From an uncultured Duganella sp. (GTDB lineage: Bacteria; Pseudomonadota; Gammaproteobacteria; Burkholderiales; Burkholderiaceae), in the NCBI GenBank assembly GCA_946482635.1, contig CAMLSG010000271.1, forward strand, positions 1 to 6,165: DNA of 6,165 nt. The letters are read 5' to 3'. Below the pieces are notes generated by a model. The model saw only the letters and a program-made list of their open reading frames with translations. It did not search any database and was not told the origin of the DNA. Position numbers and translations under genes: made by a program. Of this stretch, positions 1 through 6,164 are shown piece by piece. The number at the start of each line of letters is the position of its first letter. The stretch's first letter is position 1.

Positions 1-1167
1 TGCGTACATGGCCTGGTCGGCATGGCGCATGAGCTGGTCGATGACTTCCCCGTGCTCGGGATAAAGGGCGATGCCGATGCTGGCGTGCGGCTGCAGGCTG
101 CAGCCGGCCAGCGCCAGCGGGGTGGCGATCACTTGCTGGATCTTGCCGGCCAGCGCCTCGGCCTGCGCCTGGTCGGCTACGTTTTCCAGCAGGGCGACAA
201 ACTCGTCGCCGCCGATGCGCGCCACCGTGTCGGCCTCGCGCACGCAGGAGGTGATGCGGCGCGCAATGGCATGCAGCAGCTGGTCGCCCACCACATGCCC
301 GTGCTCGTCGTTGACCCGCTTGAAGTCGTCCAGGTCGATGAACAGCAAGGCGCCGCGCGACTGGCCGCGCCGGCAGCGCGCGATGGCAGACAGGATGCGG
401 TCCTGGAACAGGCGCCGGTTCGGCAAGCCGGTCAGCTCGTCGTAGCGCGCCGCATGGGCCAGGTCGGCATGCAGCGCCAGCCTTTCAATCACGGCGCCGG
501 CCTGGCCGGCGGTAAATTCCAGCAGGTCGATGTCCCTGGCCGGCAGCGTGCCGTGGCGCCCCAGGTCCAGCCGCAATTCGCCGAACGCGATGCCGGAAGC
601 CGACAAGGTGACGTGGTGCCAGCCGGTCGCATCGGGCAGCGGCGCGCCTTCGGGCGAGCTGGCGTAAGCCAGCCGTTCGCCCGGCTGCAGCACGGCCACC
701 ATGCCGCGCAAGGGCAGCAAGCCTTGCAGGATCTGCTCGAAGGCGCGGAACAGCTCGGGCAGCGTTTCCGCGCCGTGGGCGGCGGTGGCCAGCGCCAGCA
801 TGCCGGCCTGGCGCTGTTCGGCCAGCTTGCGCTCGCTGATATCGCGCGCCACGCCGATGCGCAGCCGGTCTTCCGGCGACCAGCGCGCGGTCCACATGAT
901 GTGGGCGACGCTGCCGTCCTTGCGCAGGTAGCGGTTCTCGAACCCGAGTCCGGGGCGGCCGTTCAGCACATGTCCCATTTCGGCCACGGTGCGGGCCTTG
1001 TCGTCGGGGTGGATGAAATCGAGGATGATGCGGCCGGTCATTTCTTCCGGCGCATAGCCGAAGATCGCCCGGCAGGCCGGGTTGACGAACACGATGCGTC
1101 CGCCCTCGTCCACCATGAAGACGGCATCCAGTAACAGCTCAGGCAGGCGCGCTAATGCATCGGTCAT
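1..1167 (-). CDS. PAS-GAF-GGDEF diguanylate cyclase (C-terminus outside the window)
   Basis: Predicted cytoplasmic diguanylate cyclase that condenses two GTP into c-di-GMP. The 389 visible residues read without a stop to the window edge. Residues about 5-117 form a PAS sensor domain (DAVFMVDEGGRIVFVN near the start, then a YLRKDGS segment and a closing DISERK linker). Residues about 120-235 look like a GAF domain, more weakly. The GGDEF domain begins at YDELTGLPNR (Y242). The active-site GGDEF is intact at 319-323, and an RxxD inhibitory I-site (R310, D313) sits exactly five residues before it, so product inhibition is expected. The sequence ends at ADQAMYA, close to the usual end of the domain; an EAL domain beyond the edge cannot be excluded. 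No membrane segment or signal peptide is visible. The ATG overlaps the aminotransferase TGA as ATGA and has no clear Shine-Dalgarno, which suggests translational coupling. The sensed ligand is unknown. Confidence 0.95.
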   Translation of the reverse strand, partial: MTDALARLPELLLDAVFMVDEGGRIVFVNPACRAIFGYAPEEMTGRIILDFIHPDDKARTVAEMGHVLNGRPGLGFENRYLRKDGSVAHIMWTARWSPEDRLRIGVARDISERKLAEQRQAGMLALATAAHGAETLPELFRAFEQILQGLLPLRGMVAVLQPGERLAYASSPEGAPLPDATGWHHVTLSASGIAFGELRLDLGRHGTLPARDIDLLEFTAGQAGAVIERLALHADLAHAARYDELTGLPNRRLFQDRILSAIARCRRGQSRGALLFIDLDDFKRVNDEHGHVVGDQLLHAIARRITSCVREADTVARIGGDEFVALLENVADQAQAEALAGKIQQVIATPLALAGCSLQPHASIGIALYPEHGEVIDQLMRHADQAMYA

Positions 1168-2324
1168 GCAAGCAGGATACAGCACTCGGCGACCTTTTGG
1201 CAGGCGGCCTGCAGGTGCGCCGGCTCAATCGTGAGCGGCGGCAGCAGGCGCACCTGGCGGTTGTGGAAACCGATGCAGACGCCGGCCGCCAGCAAGTAGC
1301 GGGCGCAGGCCGCCGCCTGTTCCGCCGTAGGGAAAGCCAGGATCCACATGGCGCCTGCCCCGGCCAGCTTGACGCTGCCGTCCGCCAGTACCGGCAACAG
1401 GGCTTGCTGTACGGTGCGTTCGATCTCCCCTGCCAGCGCTACGGCATCGAGCGCTTGCAGGCTTGCCAAGGTTGCACAGGCCGCCGCTGCGGCCAGCGCA
1501 TTGTTCGAGAACGTGCTGCCCAGCAGCATGCGCGGCGAAATCGCGATGCCGTCGCGCACCGCTACGCCGCCCACCGGGAAGCCATTGCCGCAAGCCTTGC
1601 CGAACACGATGATGTCGGGTTGAACCCCATGCTGCAGGAAGCAGAATTTCGGCCCGGTGCGATGGAAGCCGGTCAGCACTTCGTCGTACACCAGCATGGC
1701 GCCATGCCGGCTCGCCAGCGCGCGCAGCGCCTGGTAAAACGCCAGCGAGGCGCTCCAGCCGAAGGACGTGGCGTGCACCGGTTCGACGAAGATGGCAGCG
1801 ACTTCGCCGCTGCGCAGGCGAGCTTCGACGGCGGCCAAGCTTGCCGCTTCGTCCACACCGGGGCCGCAAGGCATGCGGTGCACTTGCACGATGGCCAGTC
1901 CATCGCCGTTGTCCCAGGCCAGCGCCGCAGTCAGGAACGACTTGCCGTGCATGGCGCCGGCGAAGCCCAGCGCGCTGTTGCGGCCAGTCGTCGCGCGCGC
2001 AATGCGGAAAGCCTGCTCGTTGGCTTCCATGCCGGTCGAGGCAAGGCTGGCCAGCGTGTAGCCGCCGGGCAGGAAAGCATTCATGGCCGCGCGCATTTCC
2101 TGTACCATGGGCGTCGCGTAGCCGCCGGTGATCCACACCTTGCCGAGCTGGCGCTCGATGGCCTCGCGCACCGCCGGATGACGATGGCCAAGCCACACCG
2201 TGCCGTGTGCGGTAAACAGATCGATCAAGGTCCGGCCATCCGCGGTGTGCAGCAGGTCCGCTTGCGCATCGACGATGCTGAAGGAGTCCAAATTGCTTAA
2301 TGCGCCTGCCGCAGTTCCAGTCAT
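1164..2324 (-). CDS. Class III PLP-dependent aminotransferase
   Basis: A 386-residue fold-type I, class III aminotransferase (the family of GabT, ArgD and glutamate-1-semialdehyde aminomutase). Visible family landmarks are: the N-terminal GHRHPAV segment (46-52), STGMEANE phosphate-binding region (96-103), MHG (125-127), the EP pair (181-182), YDEVLTGFHRTG with cofactor-binding D214, FGKACGNGFP with Schiff-base K243, GSTFSNN with T271, and VRLLPPLTI near the C-terminus. The D214-K243 spacing fits the class. The residue before HG, usually aromatic and stacking on PLP, is Met125. The substrate cannot be told from sequence; amino acids, diamines or sugars are all used in the class. ATG at 2324 is chosen because the family's conserved sequence begins soon after it. 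The reading frame stays open upstream to 2492, but that extension is non-family sequence antisense to the GNAT gene. The gene shares ATGA with the downstream cyclase gene and is probably co-transcribed with it. Confidence 0.93.
   Translation of the reverse strand: MTGTAAGALSNLDSFSIVDAQADLLHTADGRTLIDLFTAHGTVWLGHRHPAVREAIERQLGKVWITGGYATPMVQEMRAAMNAFLPGGYTLASLASTGMEANEQAFRIARATTGRNSALGFAGAMHGKSFLTAALAWDNGDGLAIVQVHRMPCGPGVDEAASLAAVEARLRSGEVAAIFVEPVHATSFGWSASLAFYQALRALASRHGAMLVYDEVLTGFHRTGPKFCFLQHGVQPDIIVFGKACGNGFPVGGVAVRDGIAISPRMLLGSTFSNNALAAAAACATLASLQALDAVALAGEIERTVQQALLPVLADGSVKLAGAGAMWILAFPTAEQAAACARYLLAAGVCIGFHNRQVRLLPPLTIEPAHLQAACQKVAECCILLA
2281..2286 (+). promoter_or_regulatory. Possible ribosome binding site AAGGAG for the GNAT-like gene
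   Basis: AAGGAG lies six bases before an in-frame TTG at 2293. It is the only good Shine-Dalgarno-like match before the acetyltransferase domain and is why TTG 2293 is preferred over ATG 2275. However, it lies inside the antisense aminotransferase coding region (Asp-Ser-Phe codons), so it may be a coincidence. Confidence 0.35.
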
Positions 2325-2943
2325 ACCGAGTCCCAACTTCAATTTAGAATTTCCAGTCGCCCTGGAATTATGGCATCGGGCCGGCAGCCGGATCAGCTTT
2401 GCCATTGGCGACGTCTGTTTCACGCAATTCGATGCTGCCGATGCCGACGCGCTGTTCGGCATCCGCAACGACCCGACAGTCATTCCCTTCATGCCCGGCG
2501 CCCAGGCCGTCTCCTACCAGCGCCACCTCGACTGGGTCAGCACCGCGCTGCTGCAGAAGAACAGCAAGACGCCACTGATCCTGCTGGGCCGCACCGCCGG
2601 CCGTGCGATCGGTTTCGGCCTCCTCAAGCCGACCGCGGAAGCCGGGGTGCTGGAGATTGGCGTCATCATTGCCGGGGCGTGGCAGCGCACCTCCCTGCCG
2701 CCGCGCCTTGGTGGCGCCCTGATCGCAGCGGCGGCCCAGCTGTTCGGCGCCCACACCCTAGTCAGCTACGTCAACCAGCAGCATGACCATGCGCTGCGCC
2801 TGAACAGCGGCGCGGGCCTGCTGCAGGCGCCGGCTTCGGACAAGGCGGGCGAACACTACTTCCGCACGCCGGTCAGCGCGCTGACCGCGACGCCGATTTA
2901 CCGGCGCTGCACGCGCGGCCTGCAGTTCACTATTATGGGATAA
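2293..2943 (+). CDS. GNAT-like N-acetyltransferase, start uncertain
   Basis: Only plus-strand gene in the window; about 216 residues if translation starts at TTG 2293. The GNAT-like region starts at about residue 34 with ISFAIGDVCFTQF, then DAADADALFGIRNDPTV, a pattern typical of RimJ/RimL-like acetyltransferases. A central beta segment (EIGVIIAGAWQR, W130) leads into LGGALIAAAAQLFGAHTLVSYVN and LNSGAGLLQ, resembling the acetyl-CoA-binding helix and the C-terminal part of the fold. The usual Q/RxxGxG/A loop is not clean (QRTSLPPRLGG), so activity is less certain. No ATG, GTG or TTG occurs in frame between 2296 and 2490. Candidate starts are TTG 2293 (good Shine-Dalgarno) and ATG 2275, both overlapping the divergent aminotransferase start; a rare start or a small frameshift near 2370-2392, where an out-of-frame ATG lies, is also possible. 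The 3' end overlaps the convergent hydroxylase by 11 bp. The substrate is unknown. Confidence 0.65.
   Translation: MLNAPAAVPVIPSPNFNLEFPVALELWHRAGSRISFAIGDVCFTQFDAADADALFGIRNDPTVIPFMPGAQAVSYQRHLDWVSTALLQKNSKTPLILLGRTAGRAIGFGLLKPTAEAGVLEIGVIIAGAWQRTSLPPRLGGALIAAAAQLFGAHTLVSYVNQQHDHALRLNSGAGLLQAPASDKAGEHYFRTPVSALTATPIYRRCTRGLQFTIMG
2351..2367. repeat. Short inverted repeat TTCCAG-N5-CTGGAA
   Basis: Six-base perfect arms (2351-2356 and 2362-2367) around a 5-base spacer, extendable to AATTCCAG/CTGGAATT with one bulged T. It lies in the small AT-rich pocket upstream of the aminotransferase start and near the GNAT 5' end. It could be an operator or mRNA hairpin, but an inverted repeat this short is expected by chance fairly often. 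Confidence 0.3.
2870..2887. repeat. 18-bp perfect palindrome near the convergent gene ends
   Basis: The bases CGGTCAGCGCGCTGACCG are perfectly self-complementary over 18 bp. The site lies inside the 3' coding part of the GNAT-like gene and starts 46 bases past the hydroxylase stop codon on the minus strand. A smaller CGCCG-N6-CGGCG hairpin follows at about 2891-2906. Neither is followed by a T-run, so this is not a canonical intrinsic terminator. It may still act as a 3' stem for either transcript, or be a by-product of GC-rich codons. Confidence 0.4.
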
Positions 2944-3433
2944 AGTCGAACAGCAGGACCACGCGGCGTTGCTGCGCCAGGTTCCATGCTTCATGCTCCA
3001 GGCGGTCGTCCAGCACCAGGGCGCGGCCCTCCTGCCAGCCCCTGGTTTCGCCGGACACGCGGATCGCGCAGTCGCCCGCCGGCACCTCAAGCCCGAGGTG
3101 ACAGCGCAGGTAAGGTCCTGGCTTGCCCTGGTGCGGCTTGATCCGGGTGCCGGGCCTGAGCACGGAAAACGCCACCGCGCCATGCGACGGCACCAGTTGC
3201 TCGATCAGCGCCGCCGTGCGCGGACAGCGCTGCACGCCCGCCGCCAGCGGCGCACGGTGCGGCAGGTTCCACAGACCGAACACTTGCCAGCCCTGGTCGT
3301 AGAGATGGGGTTCGACATAGTCGATCAATGCGTCCTGCACCGCCACGAATTCGGCGTGGATGTCCTGCCACTGCCGTTCCAGTTCGGCAATGAAGGGAAA
3401 GCGCGCCGCGTCGTGGAATGGTGCGGGCGTCAT
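2933..3433 (-). CDS. Aspartyl/asparaginyl beta-hydroxylase-family 2-oxoglutarate/Fe(II) oxygenase
   Basis: A 166-residue double-stranded beta-helix dioxygenase of the Asp/Asn hydroxylase family, which uses Fe(II), O2 and 2-oxoglutarate to hydroxylate the beta carbon of Asp/Asn; bacterial relatives also act on other substrates such as lipid A acyl chains (LpxO). The spacing of active-site residues equals that of human AspH as I recall it. Iron ligands would be H101 and H147 (46 apart, no third carboxylate: PHQG), and 2-oxoglutarate contacts S90, R110, H112 and R157. The terminal EHEAWN...RRVVLLFDF block is typical. There is no signal peptide or membrane segment, so it should act in the cytoplasm. 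ATG 3433 is chosen because AGGAG lies five bases upstream and it overlaps the glycosyltransferase stop as ATGA; the frame stays open to 3571 but that extension is not family-like. The natural substrate is unknown; the operon suggests a protein. Confidence 0.9.
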   Translation of the reverse strand: MTPAPFHDAARFPFIAELERQWQDIHAEFVAVQDALIDYVEPHLYDQGWQVFGLWNLPHRAPLAAGVQRCPRTAALIEQLVPSHGAVAFSVLRPGTRIKPHQGKPGPYLRCHLGLEVPAGDCAIRVSGETRGWQEGRALVLDDRLEHEAWNLAQQRRVVLLFDFIP

Positions 3434-5178
3434 GCGCGCTCCTGCCACGCCTGCAGGACCGCGCCCGCCAGCGTACGCTGGCCGCCAGCGTCTTGCGCGG
3501 CCAGCGTCGCAAAGCCGGCCCTGGCCAGGGCCGCGATGCGGCTTCGTTCGCTGCCGCTGGCGAGAAAGCACTGCAACAGTTGCAGGTACTGCGCGGTGCT
3601 GGCGGCGCGCAGTTCGCCCAGGCCGGCGCGCGACAGCAGCAGCGGGTCGACCCGCGAAGCGAGGTCGCCGCCTTCAAGGCAGATCAGCGGGATGCCCAGC
3701 GCCAGCGCATCCATCGCGGTGTTGGTGCCACCGAACGGGAAGCTTTGCAGGATCACCGACGCGCGCGACAGCCTTGCCATGTAGTCGGCATAGCTTGCCG
3801 CCGCATGCACCTGGGCGCCAGGGAATTGCCGTGCGAGCTCGCGGCGCAGCGCCAGCAATTCGACGCCGCTGGCATTGGGGAAGAAATGCACTTGCACGCC
3901 CGGCGGCGCCGGCTCCAGCGCCCTGGCCAGCAGCGCGAGGAATTGCGGCGTGAGCTTGATGCGCGCCGCATTGATCGCAATGGCCGGGCTTGCATCGGCC
4001 GGCGCGGCGGTGGCGTGCCAGCCGCCCGGCGGTGCGGCGGGCAACGCCTGCGCATCGTAAGTCGCCAGCGGCCCATATTCCGGCAGCGGCGCGCCGGCCA
4101 GGTCATGGTAGACCAGGGTGGCGTCGATCTGCTCGCTGCAGGAGGGCGCGGGATGGCCGACCGACATCAACTGCAATGGCGCCAGGCGCAGCATCGACAG
4201 CACAAACGTCCAGTAGGACATGCCTACGCTTGGGTACAGGATGACGTCCGGTGCGGTCGATGCCACCAAGTTGGCAAGGCGCACGACGTCGCGTTCGTGG
4301 GCCGGGAAATACACCTGGCCATGGCTGATCTGGCCATGCTCGGCACAGCGTGTCGGCTGGTCGGTTACCAGCGTCACCTGGAAATGTTCTTTCAGCCCCG
4401 CCAGCTGGTCCGCATAGCAGCGGAACATGGCGTGCTGGGGAAACAGCAGCTCGCCGACGATGGTCAGGCGCGGCTTGCCGTCCGCCGCGGCGGCCGGCTG
4501 GCGCTGTGCAGGCAAGGGCAGGCCGTGCAGCATGGCGCCGGCCTGGCGCACGATGGCCTTCTTGAATGCATGGCGATCCGGATCGCCCAGGTAGCTGACG
4601 AAAAATGCCGAAGACTGCAGGGGCTCCAGGTACCGCAGCGGCATCTTTACCGGCGGCACCGACATCAGCCAGCGCCCGATGTCGCCGGTACGCTGCGCGA
4701 CGCCCGCGTCGAGGGGACAGGCGTCCAGGCAGGCAATCGCCGCCATCCGCGCGTGCACCGGGTCGTGGCTACTCCATTCGGCCAGCGCAGCAGCCGACAG
4801 CAAAGAGCCATCGCCAAGGGCGGCCAGCTTCAACTGTTTCCAGGCCGGCATGCGTTGCGGCTGCTGCAGCTCATCCTCACCGGCACCGAGGACCTGCGAC
4901 AGGAAGTCGCGGTAGCCGGTGGCCGTGGCCTGCACCAGGTTGCGCACCACGCCCCTGACCACCAGCAGCCGCAGCATGCCCAGTTCATCCTTGACTGGCG
5001 CCTCGCGGATCCAGCGCGCCAGCAGTTCAAGCAAGACTGCTTCATCGCCGGGCGGCAGCCCGATGTCGCGCTGCCGCCACTGGCCTCCCAGCATCGATTC
5101 GAACAGGTGCTTGTGGAATTCCTCCCGGCCCGACAAACGGCGGGCCGACTGGAGGAAATCAATCCTGGGTTCGCTCAT
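3430..5178 (-). CDS. HMW1C-like (GT41) glycosyltransferase, putative protein N-glycosyltransferase
   Basis: A 582-residue cytoplasmic protein resembling the HMW1C/ApNGT N-glycosyltransferases, which transfer hexose from UDP-sugar to Asn in N-x-S/T of proteins before export (ApNGT is about 620 residues). Residues 1-230 are mostly helical, with a SYLGDPDRHAFKKAIVRQ stretch like the end of the HMW1C N-terminal domain. The first GT-B Rossmann domain starts near K235 (KPRLTIVGELLFPQHAMFR, H249) and includes LYPSVGM, MLRLAPLQLMSVGHPAP (H342). The second includes RIKLTPQF (K408) and SFPFGGTNTAMDAL (N486, D490). From memory these match ApNGT H277, K441, N521 and D525. The ApNGT Q469 region (GQSNG) is instead FPNASG (433-438), so sugar or peptide specificity may differ. 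The start lies three bases after the PEP-CTERM stop with no clear Shine-Dalgarno, suggesting coupling. An OGT/SPINDLY-like O-linked activity is the main alternative. Confidence 0.85.
   Translation of the reverse strand: MSEPRIDFLQSARRLSGREEFHKHLFESMLGGQWRQRDIGLPPGDEAVLLELLARWIREAPVKDELGMLRLLVVRGVVRNLVQATATGYRDFLSQVLGAGEDELQQPQRMPAWKQLKLAALGDGSLLSAAALAEWSSHDPVHARMAAIACLDACPLDAGVAQRTGDIGRWLMSVPPVKMPLRYLEPLQSSAFFVSYLGDPDRHAFKKAIVRQAGAMLHGLPLPAQRQPAAAADGKPRLTIVGELLFPQHAMFRCYADQLAGLKEHFQVTLVTDQPTRCAEHGQISHGQVYFPAHERDVVRLANLVASTAPDVILYPSVGMSYWTFVLSMLRLAPLQLMSVGHPAPSCSEQIDATLVYHDLAGAPLPEYGPLATYDAQALPAAPPGGWHATAAPADASPAIAINAARIKLTPQFLALLARALEPAPPGVQVHFFPNASGVELLALRRELARQFPGAQVHAAASYADYMARLSRASVILQSFPFGGTNTAMDALALGIPLICLEGGDLASRVDPLLLSRAGLGELRAASTAQYLQLLQCFLASGSERSRIAALARAGFATLAAQDAGGQRTLAGAVLQAWQERA
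3439..3443 (-). promoter_or_regulatory. Shine-Dalgarno AGGAG of the hydroxylase gene
   Basis: AGGAG lies on the minus strand inside the 3' end of the glycosyltransferase gene, five bases before ATG 3433. It fixes the hydroxylase start and excludes the longer in-frame extension. Confidence 0.7.
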
Positions 5179-5181
5179 TTT

Positions 5182-6033
5182 TCAGCGGGAGCGCCGGCGC
5201 TTGATACCCGCCAGGCCAAGCAAGCCGAGGCCCATCAACAGCACTGAGGACGGTTCGGGCACATCGTTGGCAGGCGCCCTGATCTCCTCGATATCGAGGG
5301 TCAGGCTGGCATTGGACAGGAACAGGTCGCCGCTTACGCCCAAGTTCCAGTTCAGCGCGTGGTTGGCCAGCAGGCCGTCCAGCAGGGACAGGTCAGTGAT
5401 GGTACCTGCCACCGAGAAGCCGCCGTTCCAGTCGGTGGTGCGGGTGGTGGTCTGGGTATAGCTGTCGCCGTAATAGTTGCTGTAGTTGCCGCTGTTCCAG
5501 CCGCCGCAGGTGTAATTGCCGCAGCGGTAGCTGTAGTAGTAGCCGCCATAACCGGTACGGTTTTCGAAGATGTGGCCGTTGTAGCGGCTGGCGGTCGAAT
5601 CGGACTGGAACATGCTCGTCTGGCCGAAGCCGGCGCCGATCCCTTCCAGCGAGACAGCAACGCTCTCGCTTTCGCCCGTCTGGGTTACGGTTGCGTAGTT
5701 GTTCACCGTGCGCAAGTAATCCGTTTGCCAGTTGGAGCCGTCGTAATACTGGCGCTGGAAGGCATAAGCGCTTGCGCTGGAGCCGTTCGACTGGGGTTGG
5801 CCCTGGTACATGCCATCCGCGTCATCGCTGAAATTGAAGGCGAACGATGCGCTGTTGATCTTGTATTTTTGCGGCAGGATGGACGTGCCATCGAAAGTAC
5901 CGGCATGGTTGCCGGCGCCCAGGTAACTGCCGTCGCCGATCGAGCCGGTCAGCGTGAAGGGAGCGGCCTGGGCTGCCTGCGACATCGACACCAGGGCGGT
6001 AGCCAGTGCTACGGCGAGAAGTTTTCGGTTCAT
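5182..6033 (-). CDS. Exported PEP-CTERM surface protein with a Gly/Tyr/Asn-rich segment
   Basis: A 283-residue exported protein of unknown specific role. The N-terminus is a Sec signal peptide: MNRK, a hydrophobic stretch, and likely cleavage after AQA (residue 23). The C-terminus is a complete PEP-CTERM sorting signal: VPEPSS (PEP at 259-261), a hydrophobic segment about 264-277, then KRRRSR. PEP-CTERM proteins are processed by a membrane exosortase and usually accompany exopolysaccharide; no exosortase gene is in the window. The middle is beta-rich and low-complexity, with a Gly/Tyr/Asn/Ser segment at 158-200. Six N-x-S/T sequons occur at N67, N83, N158, N173, N183 and N241. The only two cysteines, C171 and C176, flank N173 (CGNYTC). 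ATG 6033 is preferred to the in-frame GTG 6039, because the AGGTGA Shine-Dalgarno overlaps that GTG. It is the first gene of the predicted operon and the natural candidate substrate of the two downstream enzymes. Confidence 0.93.
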   Translation of the reverse strand: MNRKLLAVALATALVSMSQAAQAAPFTLTGSIGDGSYLGAGNHAGTFDGTSILPQKYKINSASFAFNFSDDADGMYQGQPQSNGSSASAYAFQRQYYDGSNWQTDYLRTVNNYATVTQTGESESVAVSLEGIGAGFGQTSMFQSDSTASRYNGHIFENRTGYGGYYYSYRCGNYTCGGWNSGNYSNYYGDSYTQTTTRTTDWNGGFSVAGTITDLSLLDGLLANHALNWNLGVSGDLFLSNASLTLDIEEIRAPANDVPEPSSVLLMGLGLLGLAGIKRRRSR

Positions 6034-6035
6034 AT

Positions 6036-6041
6036 TCACCT
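6036..6041 (-). promoter_or_regulatory. Shine-Dalgarno AGGTGA of the PEP-CTERM gene
   Basis: AGGTGA on the minus strand ends two bases before ATG 6033. The spacing is short but the match to the 16S 3' end is good. Because it overlaps GTG 6039, it points to ATG as the real start. Confidence 0.65.
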
Positions 6042-6074
6042 AAAGTTGTCCAAAAGAATTTAGATGACCTTTGG

Positions 6075-6090
6075 AGCAAGAAATGTTCCA
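6075..6090 (-). promoter_or_regulatory. Sigma-54 (RpoN) -24/-12 promoter of the PEP-CTERM operon
   Basis: The minus-strand sequence TGGAACATTTCTTGCT matches the RpoN consensus TGGCACGN4TTGCW at all but two positions, with the essential GG-N10-GC spacing exact. Transcription would begin near 6064, giving a leader of about 31 bases that ends in the Shine-Dalgarno. PEP-CTERM genes are known to be controlled by RpoN with the PrsK/PrsR two-component system in several Betaproteobacteria, which fits. No competing sigma-70 promoter is evident in the leader. Confidence 0.75.
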
Positions 6091-6099
6091 TGTTGAACA
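6084..6099. repeat. Inverted repeat TGTTC-N6-GAACA overlapping the -24 element
   Basis: Five-base perfect arms (6084-6088 and 6095-6099) overlap the -24 box of the RpoN promoter. A repressor or accessory regulator bound here would block the promoter. The arms are short, so chance is a real alternative. Confidence 0.3.
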
Positions 6100-6117: not shown

Positions 6118-6164
6118 AAACTGTTAATTGGCATCATGCGAAGTGTAAAAAATACCGACAGTTT
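6118..6164. repeat. 7-bp inverted repeat upstream of the RpoN promoter, possible activator site
   Basis: AAACTGT (6118-6124) and its complement ACAGTTT (6158-6164) are separated by 33 bp, about four helical turns centre to centre. They lie 28-75 bp upstream of the -24 element. RpoN promoters need an upstream-bound enhancer protein, so the pair is a candidate activator site. The window ends one base after the outer arm, so further copies cannot be seen. Confidence 0.3.

Follow-up and report, generated by a model that had tools for sequence, protein, structure and literature searches.

The DNA analyzed here is a 6,165-nucleotide stretch (“the window”; contig CAMLSG010000271.1 of assembly GCA_946482635.1) from an uncultured Duganella sp. 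It carries a three-gene operon that probably encodes an exosortase-sorted surface protein of the PEP-CTERM type along with its own cytoplasmic modification cassette, composed of a GT41-type glycosyltransferase (GT) and a small AspH-type Fe(II)/2-oxoglutarate (2OG) hydroxylase. We assign this reading a probability of about 0.58; the explanation that best fits the arrangement, short of proof, is that the PEP-CTERM protein is modified. The original prediction, made from the letters of the window alone, held that the two enzymes decorate the PEP-CTERM protein before export and sorting, and as a whole it is partly supported.

Organization of the operon

The three genes follow one another on the same strand, with a 3-bp gap between the PEP-CTERM and GT genes and an ATGA overlap between the GT and hydroxylase genes (Table 1), and this layout, described in the original prediction, was confirmed from the coordinates. 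The families proposed there were also borne out, since the Pfam models PEP-CTERM, Glyco_transf_41 (barely) and Asp_Arg_Hydrox all scored above cut-off. Neither enzyme has a signal peptide or other export signal when judged by eye, again as predicted. The first product matched PF07589 at 31.9 bits (cut-off 20.7) and TIGR02595 at 28.1 bits (cut-off 16), and has the features of an exosortase substrate: a signal peptide at about residues 1-24 (by eye) and a C-terminal PEP motif followed by a hydrophobic stretch and a basic end.

Table 1. Features of the operon and its upstream region in the window.
Feature	Position	Strand	Remarks
PEP-CTERM protein gene	5182..6033 (6033-5182)	minus	283 aa; proposed substrate
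GT41-type glycosyltransferase (GT) gene	3430..5178	minus	582 aa; predicted HMW1C/NGT fold
AspH-type Fe(II)/2OG hydroxylase gene	2933..3433	minus	166 aa; start codon overlaps GT stop (ATGA)
PEP-CTERM sorting motif	5194..5265	minus	residues 257-280; Pfam
Cys loop C-G-N-Y-T-C	5506..5523	minus	residues 171-176
-24/-12 (RpoN) promoter ATGGAACATTTCTTGCT	6075..6091	minus	42 nt before start codon; score 27/31
Motif-1-like stretch TGTCGGTATTTTTTACA	6144..6160	minus	resembles proposed PrsR activator site of PEP-CTERM genes; by eye

The analysis itself establishes the gene order, the promoter-like sites, the families, the predicted fold, conserved catalytic residues and signs that the two enzymes are inherited together. 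The mechanism, for which we infer the activity of both enzymes, the sugar, the residues, the PEP-CTERM protein as main substrate and all of the cell biology, would run as follows. PrsR and RpoN would activate the three genes jointly. While the PEP-CTERM protein is still in the cytoplasm, GT would link a hexose to it, most probably at an Asn, and the AspH-type enzyme would hydroxylate it at the beta carbon of Asn or Asp. Sec export would then follow, directed by the signal peptide, and exosortase would cut at VPEP and pass the protein to the envelope or exopolysaccharide.

The two enzymes

Glyco_transf_41 scored 25.6 bits for GT against a cut-off of 25, Pfam did not report HMW1C_N, and the sole NCBIfam match, to protein N-glucosyltransferase NF049992, reached 98 bits, below its cut-off of 1000. 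The predicted structure is a GT-B fold with an N-terminal all-alpha domain over the full length. The UDP-sugar contacts of AaNGT, and an Arg177/Asp215 dyad that recognizes the Ser/Thr at sequon position +2, are described in the available portion of PMC10507012. Nine of these contacts (H276, R280, G369, H370, K440, Y500, T519, N520 and D524; H249, R253, G341, H342, K408, Y466, T485, N486 and D490 in GT numbering) are the same residue in 28/28 rows of the GT alignment. Three differ, with S277 replaced by Ala and G521 by Thr in all 28 rows and T437 by Ala in 27, and the uracil contacts H494 and S495 fall in variable columns.

The hydroxylase matched PF05118 at 136.5 bits (cut-off 22.6) and aligned with the human AspH structure 5apa (6.5e-25). 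Its S90, H101, R110, H112, H147 and R157 correspond to AspH S668, H679, R688, H690, H725 and R735, and all six are invariant in the 37-row hydroxylase alignment (A2). For AspH, the available part of PMC6817910 assigns two His to iron, Arg and Ser to 2OG C5, and His and Arg to 2OG C1; by alignment, the catalytic set for iron and 2OG binding appears complete in the hydroxylase.

Pairing of GT with the hydroxylase

Exact equality in size of the longest contig was used as a proxy for linkage between GT and hydroxylase matches, and is no proof of adjacency. Such equality was found for 14 of 56 GT matches, compared against the 120 hydroxylase matches listed out of 205 and using the longest contig per match. 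All 14 were among the 37 GT matches of at least 420 bits (0/19 weaker matches), and all 14 partners were among the 78 closer hydroxylase matches (0/42 of the others listed). When contig sizes were jittered, a mean of 0.26 coincidences, and at most 3, arose in 2000 trials. A further pair, P0043/P0122, has consecutive locus tags (RL227_467 and RL227_468) although the longest contigs are of unequal size (4745 and 4765). Across 15 pairs, one of them that of the window, GT and hydroxylase distances were correlated with r = 0.88, a value reached in 0/20000 permutations and due in part to shared host ancestry.

The hydroxylase tree holds 119 rows (4 of 121 proteins, shorter than 150 aa, were dropped) and its bootstrap is not settled; in it the 16 GT-linked rows require one change relative to the other labelled rows, with support of 76/77, which is not firm. 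In the GT tree (51 rows), 13 hydroxylase-linked rows and all 4 PEP-linked rows fall in one clade of 34 (99/96), with P0043 outside it on a long branch. The adjoining clade of four (100/99) contains three GTs encoded beside very long adhesin-like proteins, plus P0047. GT and hydroxylase therefore look co-inherited, as a conserved pair well beyond this species. The original prediction had staked itself on conserved neighbours, and this holds for the enzyme pair; it fails in part for the PEP-CTERM gene, which has 15 homologous loci that lack both enzymes within about 5 kb, and one genome has GT without a hydroxylase nearby.

Neighbourhoods and distribution

The order PEP-CTERM, GT, hydroxylase recurs, as the original prediction would have it, in Massilia eburnea (L001), which has the same flanking acetyltransferase and aminotransferase genes, so that synteny there is regional. 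A PEP-CTERM gene of the same family also directly precedes GT in a third genome, G264, in other surroundings. The GT tree places the GTs of the window and M. eburnea in one branch and that of G264 in another. In G264 (L066, 9473-12298) GT forms an in-frame fusion with a class I/II aminotransferase domain, and a single deletion may account for the loss of both the GT C terminus and the hydroxylase.

GT relatives of at least 470 bits were present in 5/392 family genomes (in three of which GT adjoins a long adhesin-like protein), 1/74 genomes (next best match 50 bits), 2/62, 0/40 genomes of one genus and 0/17; these sets overlap. HMW1C-like matches of 142-193 bits occurred in 33 further genomes of the 392. 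The distribution of GT is sparse. Among the adhesin-linked GT loci, the protein in L067 has a TPS domain by Pfam, and those in L068 and L069, which run off the stretch, were judged by repeats; more distant GT relatives also adjoin TPS-domain proteins (L071, L073).

For the hydroxylase, a profile run against 399 order-level genomes matched at E <= 1e-20 in 48 and at more than 140 bits in 3. Of these three, G001 has GT, and the 17 kb around the G029 and G660 matches contains eCIS-like genes and, by eye, no such GT. Hydroxylase relatives in L108 and L109 lie beside an AAA ATPase and an eCIS_core protein (by Pfam in L108, by likeness in L109), which suggests that these small AspH-type enzymes are put to a different use.

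Promoter and regulation

The -24/-12 site upstream of the operon was scored with our own weighted consensus (maximum 31). Its score of 27 was reached in 3/1000 shuffles of its 132-nt region (P = 0.003) and also at two other places in 12.3 kb (both strands); taken alone, the site is modest evidence. It gains weight because 15/17 other PEP-CTERM homologues have a site of at least 28 within 200 nt of the start codon (13/15 homologues without enzymes, plus L001 and L066), compared with 1.0% of random 200-nt windows of those loci. In M. eburnea and G264 the sites are 42 and 43 nt before the start. The RpoN promoter of the original prediction is supported.

Farther upstream, TGTCG followed by TTTACA was present in 9/9 regions inspected by eye (9 of the 18 homologues). 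Motif 1, as given in the available text of PMC1569441, is a proposed activator site of 17 nt that ends in TTTACA and lies 32-92 nt before the sigma-54 site; the same text reports -24/-12 sites upstream of 99/167 proteobacterial PEP-CTERM genes. According to the available part of PMC9850573, a PEP-CTERM gene of another bacterium has been shown to depend on RpoN. Because such sites and motif 1 are known from other PEP-CTERM genes in these portions of the two papers, the promoter is an ordinary PEP-CTERM one, not special. The interval originally assigned to the system, 2933-6090, takes in the promoter but misses the motif-1-like stretch (6160-6144). Both relatives searched (G001 and G264) encode PrsR and exosortase, and each has 25 PEP-CTERM matches at E <= 0.01.

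The PEP-CTERM protein and sequon tests

The protein search returned 11 PEP-CTERM homologues. A 12-row profile (A3) matched in 20/392 family genomes at E <= 1e-8, 17 of them at 99 bits or more, and GT was present in 2 of the matching genomes. This family is wider than the enzymes, so the RpoN-driven surface-protein gene is the older element, and the enzymes either joined it or were lost from it. The wider family also made a substrate test possible, in that a sequon-reading GT should mean more sequons. The comparison of proteins with and without GT excluded L189, whose start is unsure, and the weak matches L191-L193; the thinned sets were chosen manually.

Several results weigh against a dedicated cassette of the kind proposed. 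The window protein has 6 N-X-S/T sequons where 3.9 are expected (P = 0.16), which is no enrichment. Sequons per 100 residues did not differ between proteins with GT (2.03) and without (1.55; 12 vs 14 proteins), the observed/expected ratios being 1.25 and 1.29; in the thinned sets (8 vs 10) the ratios were 1.25 and 1.41 (P = 0.62). No sequon column is common to all 12 relatives, the most widely kept being found in 8. AaNGT Asp215 aligns with S189, in a variable column that is Asp in 1/28 rows, so the sequon-reading Asp is not conserved as far as a remote-homology alignment shows; for Arg177, again due to remote homology, no position could be assigned. The sequon chemistry implied by the original prediction is thus not supported. 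Neither GT nor hydroxylase was found in the 15 stretches (about 11 kb each) around the other 15 strong PEP-CTERM matches, and the gene upstream could be read for only a minority of members of the GT-hydroxylase pair. G264 has no hydroxylase in the 19.5 kb read, and its GT is truncated at the C terminus, the frame continuing into the aminotransferase domain. No exported partner is apparent for the distant GT relatives in L003 and L005.

Sequon enrichment as proof of the substrate was rejected, as it was found neither in the window protein nor relative to homologues without GT. A PEP-CTERM background gave 93 sequons against 79 expected; it was built from 49 loci yielding 46 open reading frames (two loci gave none and one was a repeat), of which two are GT-linked proteins and the other 44 include a few clearly wrong picks (e.g., L134, L155 and L164), so that this background is rough.

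The Cys loop holds the only two Cys of the mature protein, and the one Asn they enclose is the Asn of a sequon. This arrangement of two Cys flanking one Asn occurs in 12/12 relatives of the GT-type set; in homologues without enzymes nearby the Cys pair is kept in 15/15 and the Asn in 7/15. As a signature of the enzymes this Asn (12/12 vs 7/15) is only suggestive, a lead only, because most of the 12 are close relatives and only five have a demonstrated link to GT or the hydroxylase: P0001, P0068 and L066 through their loci, P0063 and P0065 through equal longest-contig size. The predicted structure of the protein has a mean pLDDT of 64.8, with residues 150-194, including the Cys loop, below 50; Foldseek returned no match at E <= 0.001, and no fold is claimed. 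Compared with homologues without enzymes, the GT-type set is richer in Asn, Gly, Tyr and Trp, the two sets being largely different clades.

Alternative explanations

The GT-hydroxylase pair may instead be a general cytoplasmic cassette for other or several proteins that landed behind the PEP-CTERM gene and borrows its promoter. The breadth of the PEP-CTERM family, the lack of a sequon signature tied to GT in its sequences, and the spread of hydroxylase-linked GTs over branches of the GT tree where the sequence search found no PEP-CTERM homologue all fit this idea. It accounts less well for the recurrence of one PEP-CTERM family directly before GTs from two tree branches in three genomes, one of which (G264) has different surroundings, and we regard it as unlikely, if a serious competitor. 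A different doubt concerns the linkage itself, as GT could modify Ser, Thr or Tyr in the manner of OGT or SPINDLY and not Asn. GT and OGT share a Pfam family, the sequon-reading Asp is not conserved and AaNGT His494 and Ser495 have no fixed counterparts, and Tyr, Ser and Gly abound in the loop of the PEP-CTERM protein that was modelled with low confidence; an O-linkage nevertheless seems to us improbable. Equally doubtful is a scheme in which the hydroxylase first makes beta-hydroxy-Asn (or Asp) and GT reads the hydroxylated residue, perhaps the Cys-loop Asn, instead of a sequon. This would explain the joint inheritance, the unconserved sequon-reading Asp and the missing sequon enrichment together, but the Asp is also replaced, by Arg (by eye), in three adhesin-linked GTs that have no hydroxylase in the stretches read, and G264 keeps GT without a hydroxylase nearby.

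We hold it to be very improbable that the substrate of the hydroxylase is a lipid, as for OlsC and LpxO, and that the enzyme is unconnected with the protein. LpxO and OlsC belong to PF05118, the Pfam family of the hydroxylase, and are the sole NCBIfam models reported for it. Some relatives are named “ornithine lipid acyl 2-hydroxylase” by JGI, and one of these, P0126, lies inside the 44-row clade that contains all 16 GT-linked rows, with P0125 near. The scores are far below the curated cut-offs (OlsC 101 bits, cut-off 450; LpxO 76.1, cut-off 500), and the hydroxylase is shorter than the LpxO and OlsC models (297 and 259 positions). In the tree, 9/11 OlsC-named rows group in another part, and distances correlated with those of a protein GT would be unexpected for a lipid enzyme.

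Relation to known systems

The preferred reading, a surface protein with its own modification cassette, draws on known components. Like the HMW1C/NGT enzymes (HMW1, ApNGT, AaNGT; GT41), GT is a predicted soluble GT-B protein with an all-alpha N-terminal domain and nine kept contacts, and its gene adjoins that of an exported surface protein. GT has 16-17% identity to them over aligned structures and lacks a reported HMW1C_N and a conserved sequon-reading Asp; the partner is a short exosortase substrate and not a two-partner adhesin, and a hydroxylase gene overlaps that of GT. The signal peptide, PEP-CTERM motif, -24/-12 site and motif-1-like stretch, with exosortase and PrsR in the two relatives searched, resemble the PEP-CTERM/exosortase systems under PrsK-PrsR-RpoN outlined in the available parts of PMC1569441 and PMC9850573, except that the gene here heads an operon with two modifying enzymes. 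The human EGF-domain Asp/Asn beta-hydroxylase AspH shares six aligned catalytic residues with the hydroxylase, which differs in lacking a TPR domain and, by eye, any signal for export or membrane insertion. Pfam reports no EGF-like domain in the presumed substrate, and the cytoplasm is reducing, whereas AspH works on a disulfide-bonded loop in the endoplasmic reticulum (PMC6817910, available part).

The three-gene combination was not found in the open-licence PMC literature (titles and abstract starts, among the matches listed; subscription papers and preprints lie outside this scope), nor was a PEP-CTERM protein together with an N-glycosyltransferase. Each component is of a known kind, and the combination and the GT-hydroxylase pair appear undescribed within that literature. 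If the proposed reading is true, the operon would provide an exosortase substrate with a dedicated modification system, in which a bacterium combines a protein glycosyltransferase of NGT fold and a protein hydroxylase of AspH type, and it is small enough for asking what PEP-CTERM proteins look like when they arrive at the surface. Exosortase substrates, and perhaps flagellin, would then join two-partner adhesins as exported neighbours of HMW1C-like enzymes.

Neighbouring genes and other observations

Downstream of the operon in the window are a class III aminotransferase gene (1164-2324, minus strand) and a GNAT acetyltransferase gene (about 2395-2943, plus strand), divergent from each other; the acetyltransferase shows a weak, below-cut-off likeness to PseH. 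Their order is kept in M. eburnea, and no match to either was found in the 19.5 kb of G264. A PAS/GGDEF-like protein (by eye) is encoded at 1-1185 (minus strand) and runs off the window; a similar one adjoins the operon in M. eburnea.

A hexapeptide-repeat acyltransferase-like gene follows the adhesin-linked GTs (L067 8433-9137, L068 7689-8324 and L069 8408-9058; assigned by Pfam in L067 and L068 and by likeness in L069), and may encode a second enzyme acting on the glycan or adhesin. Two Marinobacter species have a flagellin gene (assigned by Pfam in L002 and by likeness in L004) followed immediately, on the same strand, by a gene for an HMW1C-like GT (L002 7353-9227, with HMW1C_N by Pfam, and L004 7344-9227), of which flagellin may be the substrate.

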